From Candidatus Peregrinibacteria bacterium CG10_big_fil_rev_8_21_14_0_10_55_24 (GTDB lineage Bacteria; Patescibacteriota; Gracilibacteria; Peribacterales; Peribacteraceae), in the NCBI GenBank assembly GCA_002772745.1, contig PFDV01000005.1:324083-388082 (forward strand): DNA of 64,000 nt. The letters run 5' to 3'. Position numbers and translations under genes: made by a program. Below, in pieces: positions 1 to 15,925 of this stretch (positions within the stretch are counted from its first letter, which is position 1; the number at the start of each line of letters is the position of its first letter). The notes below the pieces were generated by a model. The model saw only the letters and a list, made by a program, of their open reading frames with translations, did no database searches and was not told the origin of the DNA.

Positions 1-3000
1 CGACATTGGTCGCGGTGTTGGGACCGTAGTTCAGAGCTGTCAGCGTGTAGGTGAGGGTTTCTCCGCGGTTCGCGATTACAGGACCGGACTTGCTTACCGC
101 AAGGTCCGCACCGGGGACTACATGCGTCTCATCGTTATCCTGTCTATCATCACATCCCGGATCCTGCGGGAAGTCGATCAGGCCATCCTGGTCATTATCC
201 GCTCCATCCTGGCACTGCGCCTTGGGGTTCGTCTCGTCGTTGTCGGTTGCACTGGTGCAGCTGAAGTCTTCGGGGAAATCCGTCGCCCCATCCTGGTCAT
301 TGTCAACGCCATCGGAGCACTCTGCGCACTCCACCGTCGTGTGGACGGGTTGCGTGTAGTTGTTGGAATCGTTGGGGTCGATCGACGAGGTTGCAACGTA
401 CGCTTCGTTGCTGATGGTAGCACCGCAAGCCACGTTCGTGGTGACAGTGAACGCAATGAGGTACGTGCGTGATTGCCCGAAGGGCAGATGCAGATTATTA
501 CACAGCACCTTTGTGCCGTGGAGGACGCATTCATTATCGGAGTTCGATGCGTCGAAGGCGAGACCCGCCGGGATCCAGTCGCCTGCGACGACGTTCGTTG
601 CGTTGTCTGGGCCGTGGTTCGTAACGGTCAGGGTGTAGAGAAGGGTGTTCCCTCGCTGGATCAGCGGGACGCCGCTCTTCGCAATCGAGAGGTCCGCCTC
701 GGGAAGGTTGTACTCGTCATTGTCCTGCGGACTCTGACAGCCGTGGTCCTGGGGATAGTCGATCTTCCCGTCCCCGTCGTTATCCACTCCGTCATTGCAC
801 TGTGCGTTGACCGGGCCTTCATCATTATCCTGCTTGCTCGTGCAGCCAGGATCCTGGGGGAAGTCGATTTTCCCGTCTCCATCGTTATCGATCCCATCCT
901 GGCACTGTGCCTTGGGATTCGTCTCATCGTTGTCGGTTGGCGATGAACAGCTGAAGTCCGCCGGGTAGTCTGTGGCTCCGTCCTGATCGTTGTCCACGCC
1001 GTCGGAGCACTGGTATTGCACCTGGAGTGCGTCACAAGCGCTCACGGTGAGGCTGGAATACTGATCGCCGAGGTACGTGATTTTTGCGAAATTGACACCG
1101 CCAATGGTGACGATCTGCTCACCGTCGGGCGCACCCAAGCTGTACTGCGCAAGTCCGTAGTTTGTAGTCATGAGGCTTGTGAGACCTGTTCCAAGGTCGG
1201 CGCGGCTCACGAAGTCCATGTAGATCTTCTGGCCACCAGTGAGGTTCAGTGAAATTGAGTCGATGTTGTTTCCCACCGCCAAACCGGTGAGAGAGTTATT
1301 CCGGAATGCATCGATGGTGATGTAACTCCCGTTCGGATCGAGATTTCCTCGGTAGTCACTGAAGAAGACGTCATAGTATTCACTGGCATTTGTTGTGAAG
1401 TCCGCGGCGGATGGACCCTCGTTGATGTCTTGGACAAGGCGGGGATCGGTGATGGTGAACGTCTTGATGACGTCCGCCGGACCGGTAGAGCTCGTGTGCT
1501 CGTACACGGTAATGGACTGGATCCCATTGAGGTTCTTGATGGGGATCACAGATTCATCACACTGCCCGAAGACGGTTTCCGGCCCACTGTCGTCCCCTTC
1601 GTTGTCATCTTGCTTGCTCGAACAACCCGGATCCGCCGGGTAGTCGGTCTTCCCGTCTCCATCGTTATCGATCCCATCCTGGCACTGTGCCTTGGGATGT
1701 GTTTCGTCGTTGTCGGTGGGACTATCACAGCTGAAGTCAGCCGGGTAGTCCGTGGCTCCGTCGCTGTCGTTATCCATGCCATCAGAGCACTGCTTTGTAC
1801 TTTCGCTGCAATTGCCGTCAATTGCCATGTACCCGAATTTCGCTTTCGTCGTGTACCCCTCTTCGCTGCTACCGCAGAGGGAACCTTCCGGTGATCCCCA
1901 GCAGACAGCGGTAAATCCTGTTGTTGTGACATTCCGCGCCTCGCAGTAGACGGTGTCTGTGGCGTATCGCGCACATGCAGGATTAGATGTCACCCATTCA
2001 GGTGATACGATCACATGCGGCAACTGTGTGAACGGTTGATTGAACACCACGTTTTTCCGGAATCCATCTCTGCATGTCCCACCCGGTGCTACACCACCGG
2101 GACAATCTGTCGTCTCGATTTGGTGTCCGCTATCGACGAGACAGGAGTCAGTGCTCTGTTTGGAAATCCAACCTGCGCTCGCAAGGCTGAAGTAGGGCTC
2201 TCCATCGCCACACGCACTCCCTGGACTACCGCTACAGGCGAGTGTGAAGCCCTGCGAGGTAATATTCTGTGGCTGGCATCTGATGGTGTCGGTGGCTCCC
2301 CCCACACATCCACCCTGATTGGAAACGTTCTCGGGAGCGACAAGGACGTGCGGTGTCGAAGAGTATGTTTGCGGGAACGTAATTTGATCCGTGAAGAGTC
2401 CGTTGCAAAACGCTCCGTAAGGATCTGCACAATCCGATGGCGTCAGCGAGTGCGCACTCTGCGATTCGCAGGCAGGATCACCGGTACTTCCTATAGCGAT
2501 CCAGTTGGCCAAGACGGGCGCGAATAAGTTCTCGGTGTTTGCTCCGCATGAACTTGATGCCTTTGGCGAACCGCTGCACACGAGTCGGAATCCACTGGTC
2601 GTAATTTGCGTCGGATAGCAGAGATACTTGTCGGTTGCATTGTGGGTGCAAACGGCAAGGCTCATTTCATTCACATGATTAGGCGTCACGAGCACGTTGG
2701 GTGCAACGGCGTACGTTTCCGAGAATGAGATATCTTTGTAGAAAGGAGAATTGCACAAACCGCTCGATGCAGGAGAATCACATGTGTTCACCGCGACTGT
2801 TTGTGCGCTTTCGAGCGGACACGTACCGCCCACGAGGTCTGCTTCACTATTGTCCTGTCTGCTCTCGCACCCCGGATCCGCCGGGTAGTCGATCTTTCCA
2901 TCCCCGTCGTTATCCACCCCATCCTGACACTGCATCTTGGGATTGGTCTCATCGTTATCCGTCGGACTGTCACAGCTCTTGTCCGAGGGGAAGTCCGTGG

Positions 3001-6000
3001 CTCCATCCTGATCGTTGTCCACTCCGTCGGAGCACTGGTGGAATGGTGGACATGGAGGAGTGACTTCTGCGTTGCCAACCTGGTTGTTGCTCGAGAGTCC
3101 ACTCAAGTGCATTGTCGCATTATTTAATATGTCCCCGTTAATAGTTCCGGAACCGTCTACTGAGTAGGGCAAGTGATAGCTTTCCGTTCCGGTTACATAG
3201 ACCATGTGATACGTCATACTTGACCCATTAATCGTGCCGTCGATCGTCCAAGTGACGCGGGGATCTGCTATGAAATATCCAATTCCCGAGAAGCTTCCGG
3301 TCGTTGGGTTATAGGAGTTCACGTGCAAGGCATGACGCCAATGAGTACCGACCTCTCCAGGACTAGGTGAAGAAGTGACGACCCCATCCCAGAGGTAATC
3401 CCTGCCACTGCATGGGATGACTGCGTTGGTTTCGTCGTTGTCCTGCATATTCTCACATCCTGGATCTTGCGCGTAATCGACCTTTCCATCGCCATCGTTG
3501 TCGATGCCATCGGAGCACTGTGTCAGCGTGGGGCTCTCATCGTCATCCGTCGGTCCCGTGCAGTCCGGATCTTGCGGGTAATCGGTCTTGCCATCCTGAT
3601 CATCATCAATACCGTTATCGCACTCCGGACCGTTGGGATTGCGCTCGTCATCATCGTCCTGAGAGCTGCAACCGGGATCGGAGGGGTAATCCGTCTTCCC
3701 GTCTCCATCATTATCAATGTTGTCGGAGCACTGAGGAGGAGGTGTCTGGACGACAACGGCTGCACTATCCTGTGCAACCATGTTTGATGTTGGGGTTTCG
3801 GCACACTGGATTCCGAGGGTGATGGATTGCGTCACCGGACCGAATTGCTGGCTGCCGCTTGTCGGAAGCGGATGATACGGACCCCAAGGGGCAGCGCTTG
3901 TTCCCGTATCGCAGCGCTGCGCATCTTGCGATGTCCAGCTGACGGTTACCGTTGTCCCTGCCGGTACGGTGACCGGGCCATCTTGACCATTCACCTTGAT
4001 ATCCACGGTCGGATTGGACTCATCGGTGTCCGTTGTACTCGTGCATCCGGGATCCTGGGGATAGTCCGTCTTACCGTCCTGATCGTTGTCCACTCCGTCG
4101 GAACACTGCGGGGTTGGCGCTGCACAGAGAATGATTTCCTGGCAGTAGTAGGAACTGTAGCAATCGCTGCAGCTCGCCATATCGTTGTTGCACCAGTGGC
4201 CCGTCGGTGAATCCCATGGGGACTCCGCGTACACGGTGCGCAACGCGTATCCATTCGGACATGTGTACTCACAAGCGGAATCAGATGGTACCCATGTGCC
4301 GGTCTTGGTGAGCACATTTCCGCCGTTACCGATGTACCGGCAAGCGTACTGATTACAGTCGGTGGAGACGTGATCCGCCAGTTCTTCCGTGGCGACGCTC
4401 ACCAATCCATATCCTTCCGGACACGAGTACTCACAAGAGGAGTCTCCGTCGTGCCATATGCCGGTTTGCGTGGTGGTGTGCGTGCTTCCTCCGATTTCCG
4501 TGTAAAGGAAACTGCCGTAACAATCGCTGCAGCTTGCCATTGAGCTGTTGCAGGGCCACGTTTGCGTGGGTCCGTCCCAAGGCCGCTCAACGTGAATGGC
4601 ACCTTGAATTACTCCGGCAGAACCTGCGGAGTAATTGCAGGAAGCGTCGGATTGATTCCAGGTTCCTATTCCTGTTTTGGCTACGCACTGCACGAAATCT
4701 CTCTCGTCGTCATCCGTCGGGCCGGTACATCCGGGATCGGTTGGGTAGTCGATCTTTCCGTCCCCGTCATCATCTCCGCCATTATCGCACTCCGGTCCGT
4801 TGGGGTTGCGCTCGGAGTCATCGGTGGGGGAGCTGCATCCGGGATCGGCTGGATAGTCCGTCAAGCCGTCTCCGTCATTGTCGATGCTGTCGGAGCACTG
4901 CGGTGCAGGGCTCTCATCATCATCCTCCGGCCCTGTACACTCAGGATCCTGCGGGTAGTCGGTCTTCCCGTCCCCGTCATCATCTCTGCCGTTATCGCAC
5001 TGCGGACCGTTGGGATTGCGCTCGTCATCATCGTCCTGAGAGCTGCAACCGGGATCGGAGGGGTAATCCGTTTTCCCGTCTCCGTCATTATCGATGCCAT
5101 CGTTGCAGGCGAGGGGAGTGACGGTTCCGCTGCATTCGGGGACCGGCGTGTGACGGTCCTCGCATTCTCTCACGTCTGAGCCATTTACACAGATGTCGGA
5201 ACCGCTATCGCCGTCAAGTTCATCGTCACCCGTTCCACCATCGAGTTTATCTTCTTTGCTGCCGCCTTCCAGGTCGTCTTCTCCATCACTTCCGCAGAGG
5301 ATGTCGTTCTCGTCGTCGCCGTAGAGATCATCGTCCCCGGGACCGCCGTCGATGAGGTCATTGCCTTCACCGCCGCGGATTTCGTCCTCATCGCCAAGGC
5401 CGCAGATAACGTCGTTGCCGTCCTTTCCCCTAATGTCGTCTTCTCCATCCGTGCCGACGATAACGTCGTTGCCGTTGGTGCCGTCCAAATCTTCGTCGTA
5501 ATCGTCTCCGTTATCCGGACCGCCGATGATGATGCCGTTCTTCACGTAGATCGTCGCAGTCTGGCCGTGACAAGTTGGCGCCGCAGATTCATCGGGATCT
5601 TCCGGCCCCGTACATTGCGGATCTTGGGGATAGTCGATCTTCCCGTCGCCATCATCATCAATGCCGTTGTCGCACTGCGGACCATTGGGGTCGCGCTCGG
5701 AGTCGTCTTTCTTCGACTCGCACCCCGGATCGGAGGGATAATCGATCTTCCCGTCCCCGTCATTATCGATGCCGTCTCCGCATTGCGCGCTGAACGGTCC
5801 TTCGTCGTTGTCCTGCTTGCTCGTGCAGCCGGGATCCTGCGGGTAATCCGTTTTCCCGTCGTTGTCGTTGTCCGACCCATCCTGGCACTGGGCCTTGGGA
5901 CTGGTCTCGTCGTTGTCGGTTGTTGAAGAGCAGCTGAAGTCGTTGGGGTAATCGGTGGCGCCATCGGAATCATTATCCACGCCATCATTGCACTGCGTGA

Positions 6001-6730
6001 TCGTCGGCCCGACTTGGTAGTTGAAGGAAACTTTGTTGTCCGGATTATTGTCGTAGTACTCCGTATCAATGTAGTACGCGTAAATGTAGTGCGTACCGCT
6101 GGGAATGGACGTGTCATTCGCCACCACCGAAGAGAACGTCACTTCTTTGAGCGGATTGTTGCTACTGTTCATGGCGTTACTCGCGTAGAACCCGACTTTC
6201 AGTCTGGAGCTCGAGAAGGAATCTGTGATATCGCAGCTTCCTCTGCGGAAGCAGCAGAACTTGCAGTATCCCCACCCACTCGAACGTACGCACAGTGAAC
6301 CGCTGGGGGAAGTCAGCTTCAAAATATCTCCTGCCTGGAACGTACCACTCGCAATGAGCGCAGGAGTGATACCGGGGCTATTACTTGGCAGAGGTCCTAT
6401 GCATGTGTAATCCACCTGGCTTTGCGACTCATTCCCCGTATAGGGTTTTGGATTGTAGTACGGAGGTGACTGCGATGCGTTCACCGTCACGCTTCCATTT
6501 GCGGCCGATGTCGTTGGGACAGTAGGGGTCGTTGGAACTGTCGGCGTTGGATAACCCGGAAAGCCCGGAATCGTCGGTATTGGGAAAGAGGGGATAGTCC
6601 CGAAGGCTTCCGCTTTCTCGGCGCTCAGGGAGAGGCTTTGCGCAATAGTAACAAGCCCGCCGGCGTAGAGTTGCGAGGCGAGCATTGTGGAGAGTGTGAG
6701 AATACTCACGATGCGTCGGCGGCGGGACAT
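1..6730 (-). CDS. Giant secreted repeat protein (TSP3-like, RTX-like and DUF11-like modules), 3' end cut by window
   Basis: The frame is open from an ATG at 6730 to the left edge, so at least 2,243 residues are visible and the C-terminus is outside. Residues 1-32 look like a signal peptide (MSRRRR start, hydrophobic core). About 21 copies of a ~35-residue module (QC-DG-DNDGDGK-DYP-DPGC-DNDE) follow in blocks and resemble thrombospondin type 3 calcium repeats. Between blocks lie an RTX-like Gly/Asp block (about residues 397-520), a Cys-rich segment (678-868), three Cys-containing repeats (1300-1643), one DUF11-type repeat (2010-2127) and the start of a second. The role is inferred: a calcium-stabilised surface adhesin or stalk. 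Several repeats are nearly identical in DNA (around 3640-3720 and 5020-5100), suggesting recent duplication or conversion. No Shine-Dalgarno is seen. Confidence 0.88.
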   Translation of the reverse strand, partial: MSRRRRIVSILTLSTMLASQLYAGGLVTIAQSLSLSAEKAEAFGTIPSFPIPTIPGFPGYPTPTVPTTPTVPTTSAANGSVTVNASQSPPYYNPKPYTGNESQSQVDYTCIGPLPSNSPGITPALIASGTFQAGDILKLTSPSGSLCVRSSGWGYCKFCCFRRGSCDITDSFSSSRLKVGFYASNAMNSSNNPLKEVTFSSVVANDTSIPSGTHYIYAYYIDTEYYDNNPDNKVSFNYQVGPTITQCNDGVDNDSDGATDYPNDFSCSSTTDNDETSPKAQCQDGSDNDNDGKTDYPQDPGCTSKQDNDEGPFSAQCGDGIDNDGDGKIDYPSDPGCESKKDDSERDPNGPQCDNGIDDDGDGKIDYPQDPQCTGPEDPDESAAPTCHGQTATIYVKNGIIIGGPDNGDDYDEDLDGTNGNDVIVGTDGEDDIRGKDGNDVICGLGDEDEIRGGEGNDLIDGGPGDDDLYGDDENDILCGSDGEDDLEGGSKEDKLDGGTGDDELDGDSGSDICVNGSDVRECEDRHTPVPECSGTVTPLACNDGIDNDGDGKTDYPSDPGCSSQDDDDERNPNGPQCDNGRDDDGDGKTDYPQDPECTGPEDDDESPAPQCSDSIDNDGDGLTDYPADPGCSSPTDDSERNPNGPECDNGGDDDGDGKIDYPTDPGCTGPTDDDERDFVQCVAKTGIGTWNQSDASCNYSAGSAGVIQGAIHVERPWDGPTQTWPCNSSMASCSDCYGSFLYTEIGGSTHTTTQTGIWHDGDSSCEYSCPEGYGLVSVATEELADHVSTDCNQYACRYIGNGGNVLTKTGTWVPSDSACEYTCPNGYALRTVYAESPWDSPTGHWCNNDMASCSDCYSSYYCQEIILCAAPTPQCSDGVDNDQDGKTDYPQDPGCTSTTDTDESNPTVDIKVNGQDGPVTVPAGTTVTVSWTSQDAQRCDTGTSAAPWGPYHPLPTSGSQQFGPVTQSITLGIQCAETPTSNMVAQDSAAVVVQTPPPQCSDNIDNDGDGKTDYPSDPGCSSQDDDDERNPNGPECDNGIDDDQDGKTDYPQDPDCTGPTDDDESPTLTQCSDGIDNDGDGKVDYAQDPGCENMQDNDETNAVIPCSGRDYLWDGVVTSSPSPGEVGTHWRHALHVNSYNPTTGSFSGIGYFIADPRVTWTIDGTINGSSMTYHMVYVTGTESYHLPYSVDGSGTINGDILNNATMHLSGLSSNNQVGNAEVTPPCPPFHQCSDGVDNDQDGATDFPSDKSCDSPTDNDETNPKMQCQDGVDNDGDGKIDYPADPGCESRQDNSEADLVGGTCPLESAQTVAVNTCDSPASSGLCNSPFYKDISFSETYAVAPNVLVTPNHVNEMSLAVCTHNATDKYLCYPTQITTSGFRLVCSGSPKASSSCGANTENLFAPVLANWIAIGSTGDPACESQSAHSLTPSDCADPYGAFCNGLFTDQITFPQTYSSTPHVLVAPENVSNQGGCVGGATDTIRCQPQNITSQGFTLACSGSPGSACGDGEPYFSLASAGWISKQSTDSCLVDSGHQIETTDCPGGVAPGGTCRDGFRKNVVFNQPFTQLPHVIVSPEWVTSNPACARYATDTVYCEARNVTTTGFTAVCWGSPEGSLCGSSEEGYTTKAKFGYMAIDGNCSESTKQCSDGMDNDSDGATDYPADFSCDSPTDNDETHPKAQCQDGIDNDGDGKTDYPADPGCSSKQDDNEGDDSGPETVFGQCDESVIPIKNLNGIQSITVYEHTSSTGPADVIKTFTITDPRLVQDINEGPSAADFTTNASEYYDVFFSDYRGNLDPNGSYITIDAFRNNSLTGLAVGNNIDSISLNLTGGQKIYMDFVSRADLGTGLTSLMTTNYGLAQYSLGAPDGEQIVTIGGVNFAKITYLGDQYSSLTVSACDALQVQYQCSDGVDNDQDGATDYPADFSCSSPTDNDETNPKAQCQDGIDNDGDGKIDFPQDPGCTSKQDNDEGPVNAQCNDGVDNDGDGKIDYPQDHGCQSPQDNDEYNLPEADLSIAKSGVPLIQRGNTLLYTLTVTNHGPDNATNVVAGDWIPAGLAFDASNSDNECVLHGTKVLCNNLHLPFGQSRTYLIAFTVTTNVACGATISNEAYVATSSIDPNDSNNYTQPVHTTVECAECSDGVDNDQDGATDFPEDFSCTSATDNDETNPKAQCQDGADNDQDGLIDFPQDPGCDDRQDNDETHVVPGADLAVSKSGPVIANRGETLTYTLTALNYGPNTATNV

Positions 6731-7174: not shown

Positions 7175-8831
<1,657 letters not shown>

Positions 8832-8883
8832 GGCGTCAGATGGGGAAACGGGAAAACGGGTGCGCAGGGTGCGCGGAGCGCAC

Positions 8884-8961
8884 ACAGGGAAAACGCTGCA
8901 GTGGGAAGCACAAAAAGGCTGGCGCCGCATAGCGCGGCGCGATCTTTGTTCCGATTGGCTG
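8884..8961 (-). repeat. Inverted repeat A, right copy
   Basis: This is the partner of 7392-7469, covering the region just upstream of the recombinase start. Its last six bases overlap the 113-bp repeat at 8956-9068 through the shared CAGCCA/TGGCTG junction. Confidence 0.85.
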
Positions 8962-9068
8962 CGATTGCTGAACGAAATTCGAACGGATTTGGGCTGAACG
9001 GCCGGCGGCGGCTGATTTCTGGGGGGGCAGCCGCCGCCGACTCTCGCGGCTTAAGCCGCCCATTTCGG
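8956..9068 (-). repeat. 113-bp perfect inverted repeat, left copy
   Basis: Base-for-base reverse complement of 15501-15613. It contains an internal GC-rich hairpin (GGCGGCGGCTG...CAGCCGCCGCC) and a TTCGAAT motif. The two copies bracket 9069-15500, which carries the regulator, type III R-M genes and reverse transcriptase. Confidence 0.93.
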
Positions 9069-9116
9069 AAAAACTGCCAAAGAACCTGATCAAGCGTCGG
9101 CTCGAACGTTCTTTTG
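9069..9116 (+). pseudogene. Ghost recombinase fragment, downstream piece
   Basis: Bases 9069-9088 equal the recombinase coding strand at 8694-8675 and encode KTAKEP. Bases 9089-9116 match the recombinase 3' region (7497-7470) with one mismatch and encode SSVGSN in frame with SSVGSNLLL of the intact protein. This is a deleted copy in the opposite orientation to the intact gene, right against the 113-bp repeat. Confidence 0.7.
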
Positions 9117-9191
9117 TCCTGCGCACCCGTTTTCTCGTTTCCCGTTGAGGAAGGATGGCGACCATAGTACGCTGTTGCTGGCAAGAGATAC

Positions 9192-9210
9192 TTGCTGAAT
9201 ATACTAGCAA
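9192..9210 (+). promoter_or_regulatory. Promoter with palindromic operator of the Xre-mod-res operon
   Basis: TTGCT-N9-AGCAA is a perfect 5-bp palindrome (9192-9196 and 9206-9210) enclosing the -10 box TATACT (9200-9205). A possible -35 TTGCTG lies upstream at suboptimal spacing. The Xre start at 9214 is only 8 nt after the -10, so the mRNA is probably leaderless. Position over the -10 suggests autorepression by the Xre protein. Confidence 0.5.
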
Positions 9211-9213
9211 TTT

Positions 9214-9426
9214 ATGGATAGAGCGCAAGCGAATACACTCGGCAAGAAAATACAGAAACTTCGGAAGGGGTTTGAGCTATCACAGGATGAATTCGCGAGA
9301 AAGGCAGATGTGCCCTATACGACACTCACAAAGATCGAGACGGGCGTTATCAAGAAGCCGTCTGTGTTTGTGGTGGCGAAGATTGCGAAGACACTTGGTA
9401 TTTCAGTTGATGATTTACTTTCATAA
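9214..9426 (+). CDS. Xre-type helix-turn-helix regulator of the R-M operon
   Basis: A 70-residue protein that is almost entirely a Cro/C1-type HTH (LSQDEFARKADV, then TTLTKIETG, then LGISVDDLL). Small Xre proteins of this size often act as controller proteins that delay restriction until methylation is established. It stops three bases before mod (9430), so the three genes look like one operon. The palindrome over its own -10 box supports autoregulation. The specific role is inferred from context. Confidence 0.85.
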   Translation: MDRAQANTLGKKIQKLRKGFELSQDEFARKADVPYTTLTKIETGVIKKPSVFVVAKIAKTLGISVDDLLS

Positions 9427-9429
9427 CTC

Positions 9430-11214
9430 ATGCCCACTCTCCGTTGGATCGGCAAAGAGGCAGTCGTGAACCACCACCACACGGTACCGTTTCACCTACT
9501 CAAGGACGTACAAGAACTCTCCGTGGGCGATCCCGGCAGCGGAAACCTGATCGTAGAGGGCGATAACCTTCTCGCCCTTAAGGCTCTGCTTCCATATTAC
9601 GCAGGACAAGTGAAGTGTATTTACATTGATCCACCGTACAATACAGGGAATGAAGGCTGGGCATACAATGACAATGTAAATAGTCCCGTGATGAAGGAGT
9701 GGCTGGGACAAGTTGTCGGAAAGGAAGGAGAAACACTTGATAGACATGATCGCTGGCTATGCATGATGTATCCTCGTCTTGCACTACTACGAAAATTTTT
9801 ACGGGAAGACGGAGCGATCTTTGTAAGCATTGATGATAACGAGGTCCAAAATTTACGAGCTATAATGGACGACATCTACGGCAAAAAGAATTTTGTTGCA
9901 CAATTCGTTTGGAATACCGAAGGGCATACTGACAACCAGTTTCATATCAAAGTAAATCATGAGTATTTGGTAATGTACGCAACAAAAGAAACTACTCTGA
10001 AACTAGGATTTGTTGTTGATCCTAATACACGCGAGGGCAGCAACCTTTGGGCAGGTTATGCTGAAAACTCAATAACAAAGAATGGCCCCGGCAACCCCGC
10101 AAGTGAAATCACTCTACCGATCGGGTTCCCTACTGAAACTGAAGAATTGCAGTTGCCAGAAACGAACGTGCCAGCAGGTTTAATTGAAGCAATGAACGAG
10201 AAGCGACACACCAGTAACCAACTCAAGGCACAATTCGGTCGCGTGCAATTCCCGCTGAGATTTGATTCAATGGAAGCAAGAAACAAACATCTGATAAATA
10301 AGTGCCGTGTTTATTCGGGTTGGGCAAACGCAAACAAATTACGTAACTTTATTGATGCTGGCTGCGTTCCAATTGCAGATGACGATGGTATGCAGATTCG
10401 ATTCTTCATTAGTAGCAAAGGTGTAATTTACTATCGTAAAGACCGTGGAGATCAAGCGCGAAATATACTCTCGGTTCTTCGGAATCTTGGGACAACCGAA
10501 AAAATGCGTGCCGAGTTGGAAAGCATGGGAATTAAATTTCAATACCCAAAGCCAAAGGAACTATTGAGGCATATTGTTCGAGTCGGATCTGACGAAGGAG
10601 ATCTTGTCATGGACTCGTTTGCAGGTAGTGGAACTACTGCACATGCAGCTATCGAACTGAATTCTTCAAGTAAAATCCAGCGTCGTTTTATACTTATTCA
10701 GATGCCATGGGAAAATGACGAACAGCGTACAAAAGATAAGAATCTTACTCGGGACATCACTGCTGAACGCATTAAACGAGTTGCACAAGGCTACACAAAC
10801 TTAAAGGGTGAAGTAGTAGCAGGACTGGGTGGCGGCTTCCGCTATTGTCGCCTCTCTGAACCGCTCTTCGATGAAAAGGGAAAGATACGAGAGTCTGTGA
10901 AGTTTGCGGAACTTGCGCGGCATGTGTACTTCACGGAGACGGGTGAGCCGCTGCCAAAGGAGCGCGTTCCGAATACACCGCTCATTGGTATACATCACGG
11001 CGTGGGAGTGTACCTCCTGTATAACGGTATTCTGAAGGACAAGACAACAAATGGCGGCAACGTCCTCACGTCCAAAGTTCTCGTGGAATTGCCGGAACAC
11101 GAAGGACCGAAAGTTGTGTACGGTACGGCGTGCAGGCTGGGGGCTGCGCGGCTACGCAGAGAAGGTATCGTCTTCAAGCAGCTTCCGTATAGACTTCGCA
11201 TTGACGCACCATGA
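9430..11214 (+). CDS. Type III restriction-modification system methyltransferase (Mod), adenine-specific
   Basis: 594 residues, usual for a type III Mod subunit. It transfers a methyl group from S-adenosylmethionine to adenine in the recognition site and supplies site recognition to Res. Catalytic motif IV DPPY is at residues 67-70 and the SAM-binding motif FAGSGTT at about 397-403; that order is the beta-class arrangement of type III Mods. The middle part (about 150-390) should hold the target-recognition domain. It ends in an ATGA overlap with res, indicating translational coupling. Codon use in the middle is more AT-rich than in neighbouring housekeeping genes, in line with transfer. Confidence 0.93.
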   Translation: MPTLRWIGKEAVVNHHHTVPFHLLKDVQELSVGDPGSGNLIVEGDNLLALKALLPYYAGQVKCIYIDPPYNTGNEGWAYNDNVNSPVMKEWLGQVVGKEGETLDRHDRWLCMMYPRLALLRKFLREDGAIFVSIDDNEVQNLRAIMDDIYGKKNFVAQFVWNTEGHTDNQFHIKVNHEYLVMYATKETTLKLGFVVDPNTREGSNLWAGYAENSITKNGPGNPASEITLPIGFPTETEELQLPETNVPAGLIEAMNEKRHTSNQLKAQFGRVQFPLRFDSMEARNKHLINKCRVYSGWANANKLRNFIDAGCVPIADDDGMQIRFFISSKGVIYYRKDRGDQARNILSVLRNLGTTEKMRAELESMGIKFQYPKPKELLRHIVRVGSDEGDLVMDSFAGSGTTAHAAIELNSSSKIQRRFILIQMPWENDEQRTKDKNLTRDITAERIKRVAQGYTNLKGEVVAGLGGGFRYCRLSEPLFDEKGKIRESVKFAELARHVYFTETGEPLPKERVPNTPLIGIHHGVGVYLLYNGILKDKTTNGGNVLTSKVLVELPEHEGPKVVYGTACRLGAARLRREGIVFKQLPYRLRIDAP

Positions 11215-13787
11215 TTCTTAAAGACTACCAATCACAGGCTCTCAACTGGCTGGAAAAATATTTTCGCAATTGTCGCGCATGCAAAAATCCGCGTCAGGCG
11301 TACGAGGAAACGACACAGGAGTGGAAAGGCATGCGACTGAACTATGCGCCACTCAGCACACTCCCTGAAACGCCGTACGTTTGTCTGCGCATTCCCACGG
11401 GAGGCGGCAAGACACTCATCAGCGGACTTGCCATCGAACGGGCAAACAGAAGCCTCCTCTTCACGCGTCACAGCCTCACTTTGTGGCTTGTGCCGAGTGA
11501 GCCGATCCGTGAACAGACGCTTCGAATGTTACGGGAGCCGGGGGAGCTCCTGCACCAGTCGGTATTCTCCGCACTCGGAGAGGTGGAAGTGATGGACATT
11601 GACGAAGCTCTACGCATGAAATCGCATGTTCTCGCCGGAGCAAGCGTCATCATCGTTTCCACGATGCAGAGTTTTAAGCAGGCTGAGACGGATAGGCTCA
11701 CTGTCTACAAGCAGAACACGGATATGCAGGAGCATTTCGAGGGTATCACTGATGCCGCAGTTATTGGGAATCAATCGCTCGTCGACGCATTGCGGCTTAG
11801 GCATCCATTTATCATCGTTGATGAGGCACATAATCAGGGCACACAGCTCGCGTTCGACACCCTTGCTCGGCTGGAACCCAGTGCCATTTTAGAACTCACA
11901 GCCACACCTGATCGAAAGCTACAGCCGAGTAATGTGCTCTTCAGTGTCTCTGCGGCATCGCTCCATGCCGAGGACATGATCAAGATGCCGCTGGAGGTTG
12001 TGCGGCGCGAAAGCTGGAAAGACACGCTGCGCGACAGTATCGCTTGCCTCAACATGCTGCAGCAGAAGGCGAACGCGGAGCAGGACGCAACGGGCGAATA
12101 CATGCGCCCTATCATGCTCCTGCAGGCAGAGCGCAAGGACAGTGAACACGAGACGCTCGTTCCCGAAACTGTGAAGCGCTCACTCATAGAAGATTTCGGC
12201 GTACCGGAAAAGGAGATCGCCATTGCCACGGGCGTACAGGACGATCTCTCCGATCACGGGAATATCCTCGCGCCGGAGTGTCCGGTGCGGTTCATCATTA
12301 CCGTGGATAAGCTGCGCGAGGGGTGGGACTGCCCGTTTGCCTACGTGCTCTGCTCATTCCGCAATACGACGTCCTCGACTGCAGCGGAGCAAATCCTCGG
12401 GCGCATTCTCCGCATGCCACACGCGCAGAGAAAGACGCAGCAGGAACTCAACGAAGCCTACGCCTTTGTAACTTCCACGAACTTCGTGGCTACCGTGGAG
12501 AGTCTGCGCGACGGCCTCGTCCGTAGCGGCTTCGAGCGGCAAGAAACGAATGAGCTTCTCCATGCAGTGGATGCAGGAGACGAGCGAACGCTCTTTAATG
12601 CCGCGCCCTCCGTCACCTACGAATCACCGGAGCTTCCGCCGCCGGATGTGCTTGCGGGAAACCTCTCGGAACACGTAGAAATCACGCCCGAAGAATTCAA
12701 AGTGACACTCAAGGGGGACTTCAGTCCAACACTTGCAACCAGACTCGAAAACGCGTTTACGACAAGCGAAGGCAAGGAGGCCGCACGCAAGGCTCTCGCA
12801 CGGCTGCGAGGCGAGCATCCTGTGCCGACGAAATCGCCTGCAGAGCGTGGAGAATCGTTCAGCGTTCCATTGCTCGCGATTAAACAAGGCAGCATTTTCG
12901 AGCCCTTTGAAGAAACGCATCTTCTGGAGGGTGAGTGGCGACTCCTCGATTATTCCCTTGAGCTTAGCGATGCGGAATTCCCGAAGCCCGCCATTCGTGC
13001 ACAGGGCGGGCGCATCGTGCTCAAAGATGAACATGTGCGCTTCGAACACATTGAACAGATCGAACATCAACTTGCAATGTTCGACTATCAGAGCGACCAC
13101 GATCAGCTCTGGCTCGTGAGCTGGCTGGAGCGCAATCTCTACGATGAAAGCATCATCCCCGATGAAAAAGCGGCGTTCCTCAATGGCGCCGTCACTGCTC
13201 TCATTGGCAAACGCGGACTTACGATCGAGGAACTTCTGTATGCCAAGTTTCGTCTGCGGGAAGCGTTAGAACGTAAGATGCAGGATGCGAAGCAGGAGGC
13301 GATGAAGAATGTCTACCAGACACTCATGGTAGTCGAGAATAATTTTTCCGTTCGTAGCGACGTTGGAATGGTGTTCCAGAACGGGCGCTATGCTTACGAC
13401 TCCATTTATAGCGGTTCTATCGAATTACCAAAGCACTTCTTCCCGCAGATCGGAAACCTTCACGAAAAAGGAGAAGAGTTCGAATGCGCCCACTTCATTG
13501 CTACAGAGCTCCCGGGGGTCCAGTACTGGATACGAAACGTGGAGAGGAAGCCCACATCATTTTCTCTGCAAACTTCTACCGACCGCTTCTATCCCGATTT
13601 TCTCGTGAAGCTTACTGATGGACGCGTCCTTGCTGTCGAGTACAAGGGTGAAAACATTTGGGATACTCCCGACAGCATCGAGAAACGCCAGCTCGGGGAA
13701 CTGTGGGAGAAAAGAAGTAATGGGCAGTGCTTGTTTGTGATGACGAAGGGGAGAGGGTGGGAAACTATCAAACAAAAAACCGGATAA
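11211..13787 (+). CDS. Type III restriction enzyme, Res subunit (helicase-nuclease)
   Basis: 858 residues. ATP-dependent translocase/nuclease that cleaves unmodified DNA together with Mod. An SF2 helicase core is visible: Walker A PTGGGKT (residues 62-68), DEAH (204-207), and a late helicase motif around REGWDCPFA. The C-terminal PD-(D/E)XK nuclease is visible as YPDF...VEYKG (about 794-813). All key residues seem intact, so the system may be active. The start overlaps the mod stop by 4 nt. The stop codon abuts, with no gap, the stop codon of the convergent reverse transcriptase gene. Confidence 0.93.
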   Translation: MILKDYQSQALNWLEKYFRNCRACKNPRQAYEETTQEWKGMRLNYAPLSTLPETPYVCLRIPTGGGKTLISGLAIERANRSLLFTRHSLTLWLVPSEPIREQTLRMLREPGELLHQSVFSALGEVEVMDIDEALRMKSHVLAGASVIIVSTMQSFKQAETDRLTVYKQNTDMQEHFEGITDAAVIGNQSLVDALRLRHPFIIVDEAHNQGTQLAFDTLARLEPSAILELTATPDRKLQPSNVLFSVSAASLHAEDMIKMPLEVVRRESWKDTLRDSIACLNMLQQKANAEQDATGEYMRPIMLLQAERKDSEHETLVPETVKRSLIEDFGVPEKEIAIATGVQDDLSDHGNILAPECPVRFIITVDKLREGWDCPFAYVLCSFRNTTSSTAAEQILGRILRMPHAQRKTQQELNEAYAFVTSTNFVATVESLRDGLVRSGFERQETNELLHAVDAGDERTLFNAAPSVTYESPELPPPDVLAGNLSEHVEITPEEFKVTLKGDFSPTLATRLENAFTTSEGKEAARKALARLRGEHPVPTKSPAERGESFSVPLLAIKQGSIFEPFEETHLLEGEWRLLDYSLELSDAEFPKPAIRAQGGRIVLKDEHVRFEHIEQIEHQLAMFDYQSDHDQLWLVSWLERNLYDESIIPDEKAAFLNGAVTALIGKRGLTIEELLYAKFRLREALERKMQDAKQEAMKNVYQTLMVVENNFSVRSDVGMVFQNGRYAYDSIYSGSIELPKHFFPQIGNLHEKGEEFECAHFIATELPGVQYWIRNVERKPTSFSLQTSTDRFYPDFLVKLTDGRVLAVEYKGENIWDTPDSIEKRQLGELWEKRSNGQCLFVMTKGRGWETIKQKTG

Positions 13788-15194
13788 TTAAAGTTGGTCG
13801 TGATCGATGATGAGGACAATACGCGGAACAACATACGGCCAGACTCTGTGTGCAGGTAAGTTGTCCATTGGATCCCTCATTGTTCTGATAAAAGGGCACA
13901 TTTCCAGCATATTACGTCCTGCAATGCGATTTATGCCATGACACGCTGACGCAAGGTAACGTCCCATACGAGAAGCATGTTTCTGCGCTTCGTGTCGTTT
14001 CACAATACAGCTAATACGTGCAGGCAGCATCCACTCGGAATATCCGCCCAGTTTTTCATAGAGCATCTTCCGAGCTTTTTTTAGAGTTTCAATGTCCTTC
14101 GGACGCATTGGCTTTCCGGCACGCATACGATTGGCAACGCTAAGAAACATACGAAAAACTAAGCCAAGTCTCTCAATCCATTCTGAAATTTTAGTGTCCT
14201 CAACATGCACTTTTCCTAAAGTGTGTCTGTATCCCAAAAAATCCATGTCGTCATCGGGTCTATGGGATTTAACTTTCTTCTCTTTGAAAACGAGACCAAC
14301 AGCTTTCAGATCACTTTCTGCGCGTTTGCGTTCCGTTAAGAGTCGATCTTCCGATGTACATACTATTGCCAGATCATCTGCATACCGTAGAAGCTCTACA
14401 CCAAGTTTCTTACGTATTTCGTCAAAATTATAGAGATACAGGTTTGCGACGAGTGGTGACAAGCATGAGCCTTGAGGTATTCCAATTTTAGGGTTGTGTC
14501 CTTCTGGTAGTGCAGCAGGATTGTCGAAACTTACTTGAATCCAGCTTTCAAAAAATGGCTGCAATGAATCATCGGGCAGGTGCTTCTTTAACAATGCCAG
14601 GGCTTCTTGTCGCCTCAGCGAATCAAAAAAGGAAGCTATGTCTGCCTTTAAAATCCACCATCGTTTCTCCCTCATGAATCTTGCCAGTCGGATATGAGCA
14701 TCCAGTACACCCGGCGCTCTTTGTTTCCTGTTCAACGTTGGGATACCACAGTAGCTCACTCCGTTATCCAGTTGCTCTCGCAGAATCTCCCTGACAACAA
14801 TGTACACAGCGCGTTCGATTATTTTGTCTTCAAGATACTTGTGTACCATAAGTGGTCGCTTTCCACCGTCTGGTTTCTTCAAGAGAACTACATGAAGAGG
14901 GTGGCAATTATGCGTGCCTTCTTTAAGAGCCGATCGCAAGTGTCCAACATAGCTGCGTAGATTGTTGCGGAAGCTGGGAATTTCCCGGAGTGGTAGTGAT
15001 GACTCTTGCGCGCGGGCTTCCGCAGCCTGACGTAATAACTTGTGTTTGCTGAAACGAACATGGCCTCTTTTGCGTTCTTTACGCAGCAGATCACAAAGCA
15101 CCTCATCACCTGCTCTTGCGAGCGTATCTATAGCCATTGTTTTTTCAAGAAGATTCTTCATGTGCATTGGTGCCCTTCCCTGAAGCAAGCCCAT
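13788..15194 (-). CDS. Stand-alone reverse transcriptase (group II intron-like RT domain)
   Basis: RNA-dependent DNA polymerase domain of 468 residues with intact active-site motifs: RPLMVHKYLEDKIIERA (about 114-130), KADIASFFDSL (183-193, catalytic Asp185), GIPQGSCLSP (238-247) and YADD (271-274, Asp273/274), then DFLGYR (318-323). A basic thumb-like region follows, but no HNH endonuclease is seen. It lies beside a type III R-M system and convergent with it. No domain V/VI intron RNA is recognised and the 3' end touches res, so it does not look like an intron-borne maturase. A defence-associated RT is possible (inference). Start is uncertain: ATGs at 15167 and 15161 are also plausible. Confidence 0.85.
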   Translation of the reverse strand: MGLLQGRAPMHMKNLLEKTMAIDTLARAGDEVLCDLLRKERKRGHVRFSKHKLLRQAAEARAQESSLPLREIPSFRNNLRSYVGHLRSALKEGTHNCHPLHVVLLKKPDGGKRPLMVHKYLEDKIIERAVYIVVREILREQLDNGVSYCGIPTLNRKQRAPGVLDAHIRLARFMREKRWWILKADIASFFDSLRRQEALALLKKHLPDDSLQPFFESWIQVSFDNPAALPEGHNPKIGIPQGSCLSPLVANLYLYNFDEIRKKLGVELLRYADDLAIVCTSEDRLLTERKRAESDLKAVGLVFKEKKVKSHRPDDDMDFLGYRHTLGKVHVEDTKISEWIERLGLVFRMFLSVANRMRAGKPMRPKDIETLKKARKMLYEKLGGYSEWMLPARISCIVKRHEAQKHASRMGRYLASACHGINRIAGRNMLEMCPFIRTMRDPMDNLPAHRVWPYVVPRIVLIIDHDQL

Positions 15195-15339
15195 TGTCGA
15201 AAATGAACTTGCTCAGGTGATGTGCGATTGTCCAGTAACTCTTTTCGGGTGGCGCCCGTGCAAGGTTATGAGCATTGCCATTGACCGGAGCAATCGCTTG
15301 CGTTGCGATCCAAGAGATCATGTGATCATCATGGGGCAC
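15145..15339 (-). CDS. Possible 64-aa peptide overlapping the RT start
   Basis: A short frame in the same direction as the RT overlaps its 5' end by about 50 nt. It starts MPHDDHMISW and has no recognised domain. It could be a coupled leader peptide or an RT partner, or only a chance frame within an untranslated RNA. No Shine-Dalgarno is seen. Weak call. Confidence 0.22.
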   Translation of the reverse strand: MPHDDHMISWIATQAIAPVNGNAHNLARAPPEKSYWTIAHHLSKFIFDNGLASGKGTNAHEESS

Positions 15340-15467
15340 AACTGCAACCTCAATGATAATTCATCGAAGCGGTTGGCAGTCTACAATCATGAGTGCCAAT
15401 TTACAAACAGATCGGCTTGCCGGGAAGGCATTTAAATTGTGGTGTATGTTTGTACACCACCTATTGA

Positions 15468-15499
15468 GAATTTGCAGCCAGAGAACAATTGGAAATCGT
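15468..15499 (+). pseudogene. Ghost recombinase fragment, upstream piece
   Basis: 31 of 32 bases equal the recombinase coding strand at 8744-8713 and encode EFAAREQLEI. In the intact gene this piece and the one copied at 9069-9088 are separated by just 18 nt, the palindrome GCCTCGCAGAGCGAGGC (8695-8711). Together they define a second recombinase gene split at that point. Confidence 0.75.
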
Positions 15500-15500
15500 C

Positions 15501-15613
15501 CCGAAATGGGCGGCTTAAGCCGCGAGAGTCGGCGGCGGCTGCCCCCCCAGAAATCAGCCGCCGCCGGCCGTTCAGCCCAAATCCGTTCGAATTTCGTTCA
15601 GCAATCGCAGCCA
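15501..15613 (+). repeat. 113-bp perfect inverted repeat, right copy
   Basis: Exact reverse complement of 8956-9068 over all 113 bases. Perfect identity suggests either a recent event, homogenisation between the copies, or active use as recombination sites. Beyond 15613 the sequence differs from the flank of the left copy, so the repeat edge is sharp. Confidence 0.93.
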
Positions 15614-15736
15614 CGTAAAATCGCTCGCAGTAGCTCGCGATCACGTGGCGCAGCCACCCGATTCGAACATGAATAGCTTCCAAGCGAGAAGCGATTTTAC
15701 GTGCGCCGCGTAGAGCCGGTAGGCTCTTTACGCGGC
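15612..15736. repeat. Palindrome cluster beside the 113-bp repeat
   Basis: CACGTAAAATCGCT (15612-15625) is perfectly inverted at 15690-15703, with GTGGC/GCCAC-type and other smaller palindromes inside. It is followed by a strong hairpin GCCGCGTAGAGCC-GGTA-GGCTCTTTACGCGGC (15705-15736, one base bulged). The layout is reminiscent of a folded recombination site, but no known class is recognised. Confidence 0.6.
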
Positions 15737-15925
15737 CAACATGTGCACGCGACCGTGCTGCTCTTGGGTCACAATTTGCATTTCTAGCCATGAGATGCTC
15801 AATCGCTCTATGCGTTAGGGTTATTTAGTTGAGCATCTTATCAGCGAGTGCTCAAACAGAATACGACAACGAATTTCGTACATCTTAAAGCCAAACATGC
15901 ACAAGACGGTGCGTTCCCTGCGTGT

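Follow-up and report, generated by a model that had tools for sequence, protein, structure and literature searches.

An integrative element with an inverted internal attachment site and covarying recombinase gene pieces at tRNA genes of Patescibacteria

Introduction

The element treated here is most closely related to the elements and prophages of the A118, Bxb1 and phiC31 type, which integrate by means of a large serine recombinase (LSR). It is 8.2 kb in size, adjoins the 3' CCA end of a tRNA-Gln gene and lies in a window of 64,000 nucleotides (the whole stretch of DNA that was analysed, to which all positions refer) from Candidatus Peregrinibacteria bacterium CG10_big_fil_rev_8_21_14_0_10_55_24 (assembly GCA_002772745.1, contig PFDV01000005.1, positions 324,083 to 388,082). 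With these known elements it shares the Resolvase, Recombinase and zinc-ribbon domains of its enzyme and a shift of 5 bp between the half-sites of the attachment (att) sites attP and attB; according to PMC3783163, the motif bound by the LSR zinc domain lies 5 bp toward the centre in attB as compared with attP. Unlike the known elements, the present one carries attP inside the LSR gene, together with an internal inverted attP and covarying gene pieces, and appears to target tRNA 3' ends via the T-loop. The main text of a survey of LSRs contains neither the word 'tRNA' nor the word 'Patescibacteria' (PMC10083194).

Three further systems are reminiscent of the element in certain aspects. In SSV-type archaeal integrase elements, insertion into a tRNA gene also interrupts the integrase gene, but the enzyme is a tyrosine recombinase instead of a serine recombinase and the break point is another one; we know of no inverted att copy in them. 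In CTX-type filamentous phages, with their folded attP, and in the attC sites of integrons, inverted sequences can pair within one strand to make up an att site. Those sites are used by tyrosine recombinases acting on one strand, whereas here the enzyme is of the serine type and the folded strand is proposed to rejoin the ends of the element, not to serve as a recombination substrate. Finally, tRNA-borne islands and satellites, for example tycheposons and phage-inducible chromosomal island (PICI)-like satellites, are likewise small and tRNA-linked with exchangeable cargo, but use recombinases other than this LSR, and to our knowledge none has a self-complementary core. No named element with the present layout was found, in agreement with the sequence-only reading of this DNA, nor any description of the family in the full texts searched; most subscription papers and all preprints lay outside that search, and absence is therefore unproven.

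Extent and organization of the element

The element spans positions 7398-15613. It is inserted between the CCA end of tRNA-Gln and the right flank, and its first gene is that of the LSR (Table 1). Sequence similar to the flank (from 15611) occurs directly 3' of tRNA genes elsewhere, namely tRNA-Gln in genome G030, tRNA-Ser in G035 and tRNA-Met in G006, G018 and G024, and the limits of the element are therefore placed at these positions. In G005 such sequence begins about 30 nt past tRNA-Glu, and in G003 and G016 no tRNA gene is found beside it. The tRNA-Gln CCA end of G030 is directly followed by a counterpart of the window's right flank at 82%. This supports, but does not prove, that G030 holds the orthologous empty site, because the flank is a dispersed repeat and the gene order round it differs in G030, where TGT stands on the other side. 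Positions 15611-15774 of the window themselves form a dispersed, partly palindromic repeat with a T-loop-like GATTCGAAC of its own, and this post-tRNA repeat is possibly another tRNA-linked mini-element.

The sequence-only reading had regarded two perfect 113-bp inverted repeats as the bounds of a unit containing an Xre regulator, a type III mod-res pair and a reverse transcriptase. The repeats are indeed exact reverse complements (allowing mismatches, the match extends to 125 nt at 96%), the four genes between them are as named (HTH_3, PADLOC, RVT_1), and the notion of a mobile, recombination-linked unit with defence cargo was right. The left copy, however, is internal; the unit starts at the tRNA-Gln end at 7397 and includes the LSR. 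That reading had missed the tRNA-Gln gene, the LSR and five further inverted pairs (78, 32, 28, 26 and 20 bp), which the self-comparison ties without exception to the LSR gene or its leader. Of the 113-bp copies, one is the right end of the element and the other is part of an internal inverted copy of the complete attP upstream of the LSR.

With a prime marking an inverted copy, the order on the sense strand is right-end arm, d', cargo, e', b', c', A, a', e, LSR start codon, d, a 17-nt hairpin, c, LSR body, b, a and the tRNA (antisense). On the plus strand, the internal block of a' and A reads, by eye, as an uninterrupted 3' end of the LSR gene with a native tail (..DWLRLLNEIRTDLG) and a stop codon. 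The attP site therefore lies within the 3' end of the LSR gene, and integration cuts off the native C-terminal tail of the enzyme; the LSR open reading frame as listed (7221-8930) reads on into the antisense strand of tRNA-Gln. A second, complete, inverted attP (A followed by a') sits upstream of the LSR.

Table 1. Positions of the features of the element and its surroundings in the window (a prime marks an inverted copy)
Feature	Position	Strand	Description or evidence
tRNA-Gln (TTG), integration target	7323-7397	+	ARAGORN, Rfam
Overlap core CAGCCA	7392-7397		Last six tRNA-Gln bases; att-site comparison
LSR, homologous part, 480 aa	7392-8831	-	Resolvase, Recombinase, Zn_ribbon_recom (Pfam) and alignment
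Arm a	7392-7469		LSR 3' coding end to crossover; left attP half, now attL; 78 bp, 87% inverted match to 8884-8961
Piece b	7470-7497		LSR nt 1334-1361; inverted match to 9089-9116, 27/28
Piece c	8675-8694		LSR nt 137-156; inverted match to 9069-9088, 20/20
Hairpin hp	8695-8711		17 nt, 6-bp stem; within LSR gene between c and d
Piece d	8713-8744		LSR nt 87-118; inverted match to 15468-15499, 97%
Piece e	8843-8868		Just upstream of LSR start codon; inverted match to 9118-9143, 25/26
a'	8884-8961		Internal inverted copy of arm a; inverted match
A	8956-9068	+	Internal 113-bp copy; native LSR C-tail, GC-rich hairpin
c'	9069-9088		Abuts A
b'	9089-9116		Abuts c'
e'	9118-9143		One nt from b'
Xre-type regulator, 70 aa	9214-9426	+	HTH_3
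Type III methyltransferase (mod), cargo	9430-11214	+	PADLOC MTase_III, 541 bits
Type III restriction subunit (res), cargo	11211-13787	+	PADLOC REase_III, 424.5 bits
Group II-like reverse transcriptase, YADD motif, cargo	13788-15194	-	RVT_1, 80 bits
d'	15468-15499		One nt from right-end arm
Right-end copy of A	15501-15613	-	Other attP half, now attR; 100% inverted match
Right flank	15614-15774		Similar sequence directly 3' of tRNA-Gln CCA end in G030

The combination of Recombinase and zinc-ribbon domains in a serine recombinase places the unit among the LSR elements. Other classes do not fit. A transposon with terminal inverted repeats is rejected since the left one of the repeats lies inside the unit and 8956 and 15613 are not flanked by a target duplication (by eye). 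An SCCmec-like cassette would contain a Ccr recombinase, but the CcrB score is 96.9 bits against a cut-off of 900. An integron is rejected as the recombinase is serine-type and not an IntI tyrosine integrase, although attC sites were not searched for. As regards integrative conjugative or mobilizable elements (ICE, IME), no relaxase or conjugation genes are present among the five genes of the window's element. A search of plasmids with the repeat region gave no match.

Attachment sites and target recognition

Relatives were collected by a genome scan with an alignment of 11 LSR sequences, and the best 80 of at least 560 relatives were kept; these best loci belong mostly to Patescibacteria lineages or are named just 'bacterium', with few others. 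The first sample (n = 89) consists of the window, ten further loci and L052-L130 without L058. L058, a copy of L043, and L051, on the same contig as L038, were dropped. A second sample (n = 40) was hand-picked from better matches within the phylum, none of them more than 95% identical over 900 bases to the first sample. The loci are not phylogenetically independent: 19 pairs of first-sample LSRs exceed 90% identity over 900 nt, the closest being L045 and L063 (98%).

An inverted copy of arm a (at least 60 bp) is found upstream of the LSR in 73 of the 89 and 35 of the 40 loci, and of the 28 second-sample loci whose upstream sequence extends to 8.8 kb or more, 23 have the A pair as well. An antisense tRNA gene is seen at the LSR 3' end in 61/89 and 32/40 loci. 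The targets include tRNAs Gln, Glu, Arg, Lys, Tyr, Val, Ser, Pro and Trp, and further Leu, Asn, Phe, His, Asp, Gly, Ala and Ile.

Two features of the att sites recur. Compared with the internal attP, the tRNA attB has its T-loop motif TTCGAAC shifted by 5 bp toward the crossover; this holds for 44 of 47 scorable first-sample loci, for 18 of 24 second-sample loci and for the window itself, where a mimic of the motif stands within A at about 8978. The position of the motif was measured from the CCA complement and concerns the tRNA-side half-site only; 42 of the 89 loci were left out of the count for having no tRNA, no a' or an arm short of the tRNA end. Furthermore, the internal copy matches the locus's own target tRNA over exactly six bases in 51 of 71 cases, and its core bases 4-6 fit that tRNA in 56 of 71, where shuffling gives a mean of 8.9 and a maximum of 18. 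Recognition of many tRNA genes by the LSR, through the T-loop plus a core matching the last six tRNA bases, is consistent with the known rules for LSR att sites. The T-loop would probably be read through the zinc-ribbon domain. Such a rule would allow one recombinase family to use many tRNA genes.

Short pieces that covary with the recombinase gene

In elements with LSRs about 50-67% identical to that of the window (89% for L038), short pieces of about 20-33 nt are copied, in inverted orientation, from fixed coordinates of the LSR gene. Each copy resembles its own gene more than those of other elements, with mean identities to own and other genes of 0.958 and 0.761 for c (n = 36), 0.933 and 0.571 for b (n = 34) and 0.920 and 0.823 for d (n = 28), and the own-gene matches exceed all of 10,000 permutations. 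Where a gene departs from the consensus, the copy follows it at 96 of 107 positions in c, 214 of 250 in b and 48 of 67 in d. The copies of b, c and d had been picked by a threshold on their match to the own gene, which favours own identity, and the test for c was therefore repeated with copies located by adjacency to A alone. In the 38 loci with a hairpin and an A pair, own matches then amount to 644 of 760, as compared with a permuted maximum of 592, and 29 of the 38 have at least 17 of 20 matches.

The pieces also usually adjoin their neighbours. The distance of c' to A is within -8 to +3 nt in 21 of 24 cases; the right-end arm abuts d' in 24 of 30, e' abuts b' in 24 of 31, b' abuts c' in 19 of 26 and b abuts a in 30 of 39, with a looser spacing of a' to e (19/33). 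Read in order, the pieces resemble a rearranged, internally deleted LSR gene, and tandem units that have lost the LSR occur (L080), so it could be imagined that they are remains of a second, inverted LSR copy without present function. The same coordinates recur, however, in LSRs of only about 50-67% identity, and the pieces follow their own gene. Decay would not produce such covariation; it is thereby largely refuted and seems very improbable.

Between c and d, the hairpin within the gene covaries too. At its two positions that are free to vary, Watson-Crick pairs are present in 43 and 46 of the 47 loci with c or d (expected 25.2 and 20.6), and G.T pairs number 2 against an expectation of 12.7. 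When all six positions are counted, Watson-Crick pairs make up 270 of 282, as compared with 196 of 480 in the 80 loci where no pieces were detected. Conservation at synonymous sites is unusually high at d and at b-a but slight at c; it is high in some other stretches of the LSR gene as well.

Regulation by RNA would be another way to maintain these copies. The leader of the LSR (e' b' c' A a' e) might pair with the coding part of its mRNA, or act in antisense, and shut off translation of the recombinase after integration; piece e coincides in part with the stretch immediately before the start codon, and pieces and in-gene hairpin covary. But pairing in RNA should leave more G.T than A.C mismatches on the transcribed strand. 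The ratios are 13:20 in e, b and c, 84:64 in a and 44:43 in A (141:127 overall), hence without wobble excess, and in the hairpin G.T pairs are depleted. In addition, once the element is integrated, d' and the right-end arm are on the far side of the cargo and no part of such a leader. The mismatch test speaks against RNA regulation as the cause of copy identity, and we consider this reading quite improbable on the whole. As no G.T excess is found, the process that keeps the copies alike is placed in DNA, on which it seems to act. A covarying, self-complementary core implies a strong DNA-level constraint within a protein-coding gene, which makes for a precise and testable puzzle.

A possible DNA splint

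The best explanation that we can offer, held tentatively and with somewhat less than even confidence, is that of an LSR element at tRNA-Gln whose internal inverted attP serves as a DNA splint for joining its ends. The element would enter the cell as single-stranded DNA by natural transformation, an entry that a splint would suit. In the single strand, the left end (a) would pair with a' and the right end with A, so that both ends meet exactly at the crossover. Their ligation would restore a circle with attP, independently of an excision factor, and the LSR would then integrate this circle at a tRNA gene. As the strand passes repeatedly through this paired state, mismatch repair would prevent the copies from diverging. 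The pieces b, c, d and e and the hairpin hp, seen in one subgroup, would flank both splint ends, and the cargo, often of the defence type, would be a passenger. If this idea is true, it would give an element a means of circularising after natural transformation without excision machinery.

When the single strand is folded with DNA energies and without pseudoknots, nearly all positions of both ends are paired with the splint in two of two small elements (82/86 and 101/101 end positions in L085, 84/89 and 99/99 in L099). The genome of the window encodes ComEC, which is weak support since 10 of 14 control genomes do so too. The com genes are described as conserved across the radiation, with natural transformation in a Saccharibacterium (PMC10633639), and relaxases as present in few Patescibacteria (PMC12102498). 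Direct action of the LSR on a folded single-strand attP was rejected on paper, because a double-strand exchange would leave hairpin-capped chromosome arms. A bolder version of the splint proposal supposes that such mobile elements form a widespread class and are adapted to moving in single-stranded form. In this version the built-in attP splint rejoins the ends of any linear strand carrying the element, the short LSR-gene copies and the in-gene hairpin clamp the fold, and no excision factor, relaxase or phage is needed. This version we consider rather doubtful.

Several observations weigh against the splint. The short pieces would have to cross the two long helices as a pseudoknot and are absent from both folds (0 of 35, 27, 27 and 21 positions paired in L085; 0 of 32, 20, 24 and 20 in L099). 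No a' is detected in 16 of the 89 and 5 of the 40 loci, pieces c or d are detected in 47 of 127 readable loci, with some others incomplete, and in 9 of the 38 hairpin loci the 20 nt beside A match the c of the gene in fewer than 17 bases. As to the att sites, 6 of 24 second-sample loci are without the 5-bp shift, and 15 of 71 show a difference among the six core bases; in exceptions of the kind of L101, the element may have jumped to another tRNA recently. No excision (directionality) factor was recognised among the scanned proteins, such factors being small and easily missed. The long arms could be homogenised by gene conversion in double-stranded DNA without any splint. Finally, if the two attP sites were equivalent, about half of the LSRs would be expected to be flipped, and the count is 2 flipped to 93 normal.

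In a rival explanation entirely within double-stranded DNA, the inverted attP is an orientation device or an accident. Recombination between a and a', or integration by the other attP, would flip the LSR gene, restore its native C-tail and place the gene behind the tRNA promoter, and gene conversion, for which arms of about 75-358 bp suffice, would keep the long arms identical. The tRNA lies on the 5' side of the LSR in 2 of the 89 first-sample loci (L070 and L122) and in none of the 40. L070 has a full native-type tail, followed by a hairpin and direct copies of c, b and, by eye, e; the LSR of L122 is 91% identical to that of the normally oriented L093. On the other hand, the contig of L122 ends within the LSR so that the 3' side is not covered, in L070 a and a' have diverged too far for the search to detect them, and the rarity of flipped loci tells against this explanation as well. 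With their 20-33 nt, the pieces offer little length for gene conversion, but they nevertheless follow their own gene. We regard an orientation device or accident as unlikely and retain the splint as the preferred reading.

Distribution

A relative of the LSR (E 1e-60 or better) is present in 146 of 379 genomes drawn from the phylum of the window, where matches at this threshold reach down to about 34% identity, so that the count extends beyond the elements studied here. The genomes of Patescibacteria are small and their mobilome is obscure. Group 1, which includes the window, has the short pieces and the in-gene hairpin in addition to the long arms; the others have long arms only, and A pairs reach 358 bp. 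Among more distant LSRs (L028-L037), a small control covering about 1.5 kb on each side and less for L030, none of ten has inverted repeats of at least 20 nt. Viral contigs contributed 10 loci with an LSR relative, few of them full-length, and add little.

The closest relative is the element of G022 (L038), with an LSR 89% identical, a similar regulator, the same repeats and a different cargo. An assembly artefact at the repeats, the main caution of the sequence-only reading, is very unlikely, for long inverted arms recur in other genomes, among them the single-contig genomes G062, G160, G188 and G217. These four belong to the subgroup without the full set of short pieces; short-piece loci lie on longer draft contigs, for example L041, L173 and L177. 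Of the inversion of the cargo that had been envisaged there is no sign: in 29 of the 29 first-sample loci where a c copy was found, it lies on that side of the cargo which faces the LSR.

Some loci deviate in ways of their own. The right end of the G022 element (L038, 9715-9770) departs from the internal copy beyond TTCAG and contains a 3' end like that of tRNA-Gln, which suggests a possible rearrangement of this boundary. In L207 and L208 (contig 1 of the single-contig genome G217), two LSR elements stand tail to tail at neighbouring tRNA-Leu and tRNA-Gln genes. The LSR of L128 is followed by the same native-tail sequence as the internal attP of L054, from the same host record set, an arrangement that suggests stacked insertions. 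The LSR contigs of L070, L123, L124 and L118 are titled Desulfobacterales, Sulfuricaulis, Bdellovibrio and Caldisericales, respectively, which points to binning errors or a wider spread. Within the window, but outside the element, positions 120-6010 contain many imperfect repeats (about 50-400 bp, 65-85% identity) with fragmented open reading frames.

Cargo

The cargo was scanned with Pfam in 31 of the 44 first-sample elements with an A pair, chosen by eye; 52 of the 113 listed open reading frames of at least 100 aa were covered, plus the regulator of the window. Restriction, DNA-methyltransferase or other defence-type proteins are present in 14 of the 31. Besides the type III system and reverse transcriptase (RT) of the window, these comprise a C5 methylase with MzaB- and MzaC-like proteins (L038), type II pairs (L040, L057, L061), a type IIG enzyme (L062), a type III-like pair (L056), type I systems (L092, and L105 with a Drt4-like RT), an N6 methylase with an S subunit and an OLD-like ATPase (L093) and a DrmD-like helicase (L114); in L076, L095 and L097 only a DNA methyltransferase was seen. 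The other 17 carry S-layer, generic methyltransferase, radical SAM, Hsp70-like, Schlafen-like, HNH or unassigned proteins.

Small elements often have a single cargo gene, and cargo can build up in tandem units. In L080 (-2700 to -130 relative to the LSR start) there are two such units, each with d', b', e' and a right-end arm, and L074 is also listed among the tandem units.

The RT of the window scores 128.6 bits with the group II-like model TIGR04416, below the cut-off of 300, and no group II intron RNA is found in the window at the Rfam threshold. As for an RNA partner of the RT, Rfam matched only tRNA in the window; no specific search was made for template and variable repeats or for unlisted retron RNAs. 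An RT stands beside a restriction-modification system twice, at 13788-15194 of the window (group II-like, with type III) and at 3408-4910 of L105 (Drt4-like, with type I).

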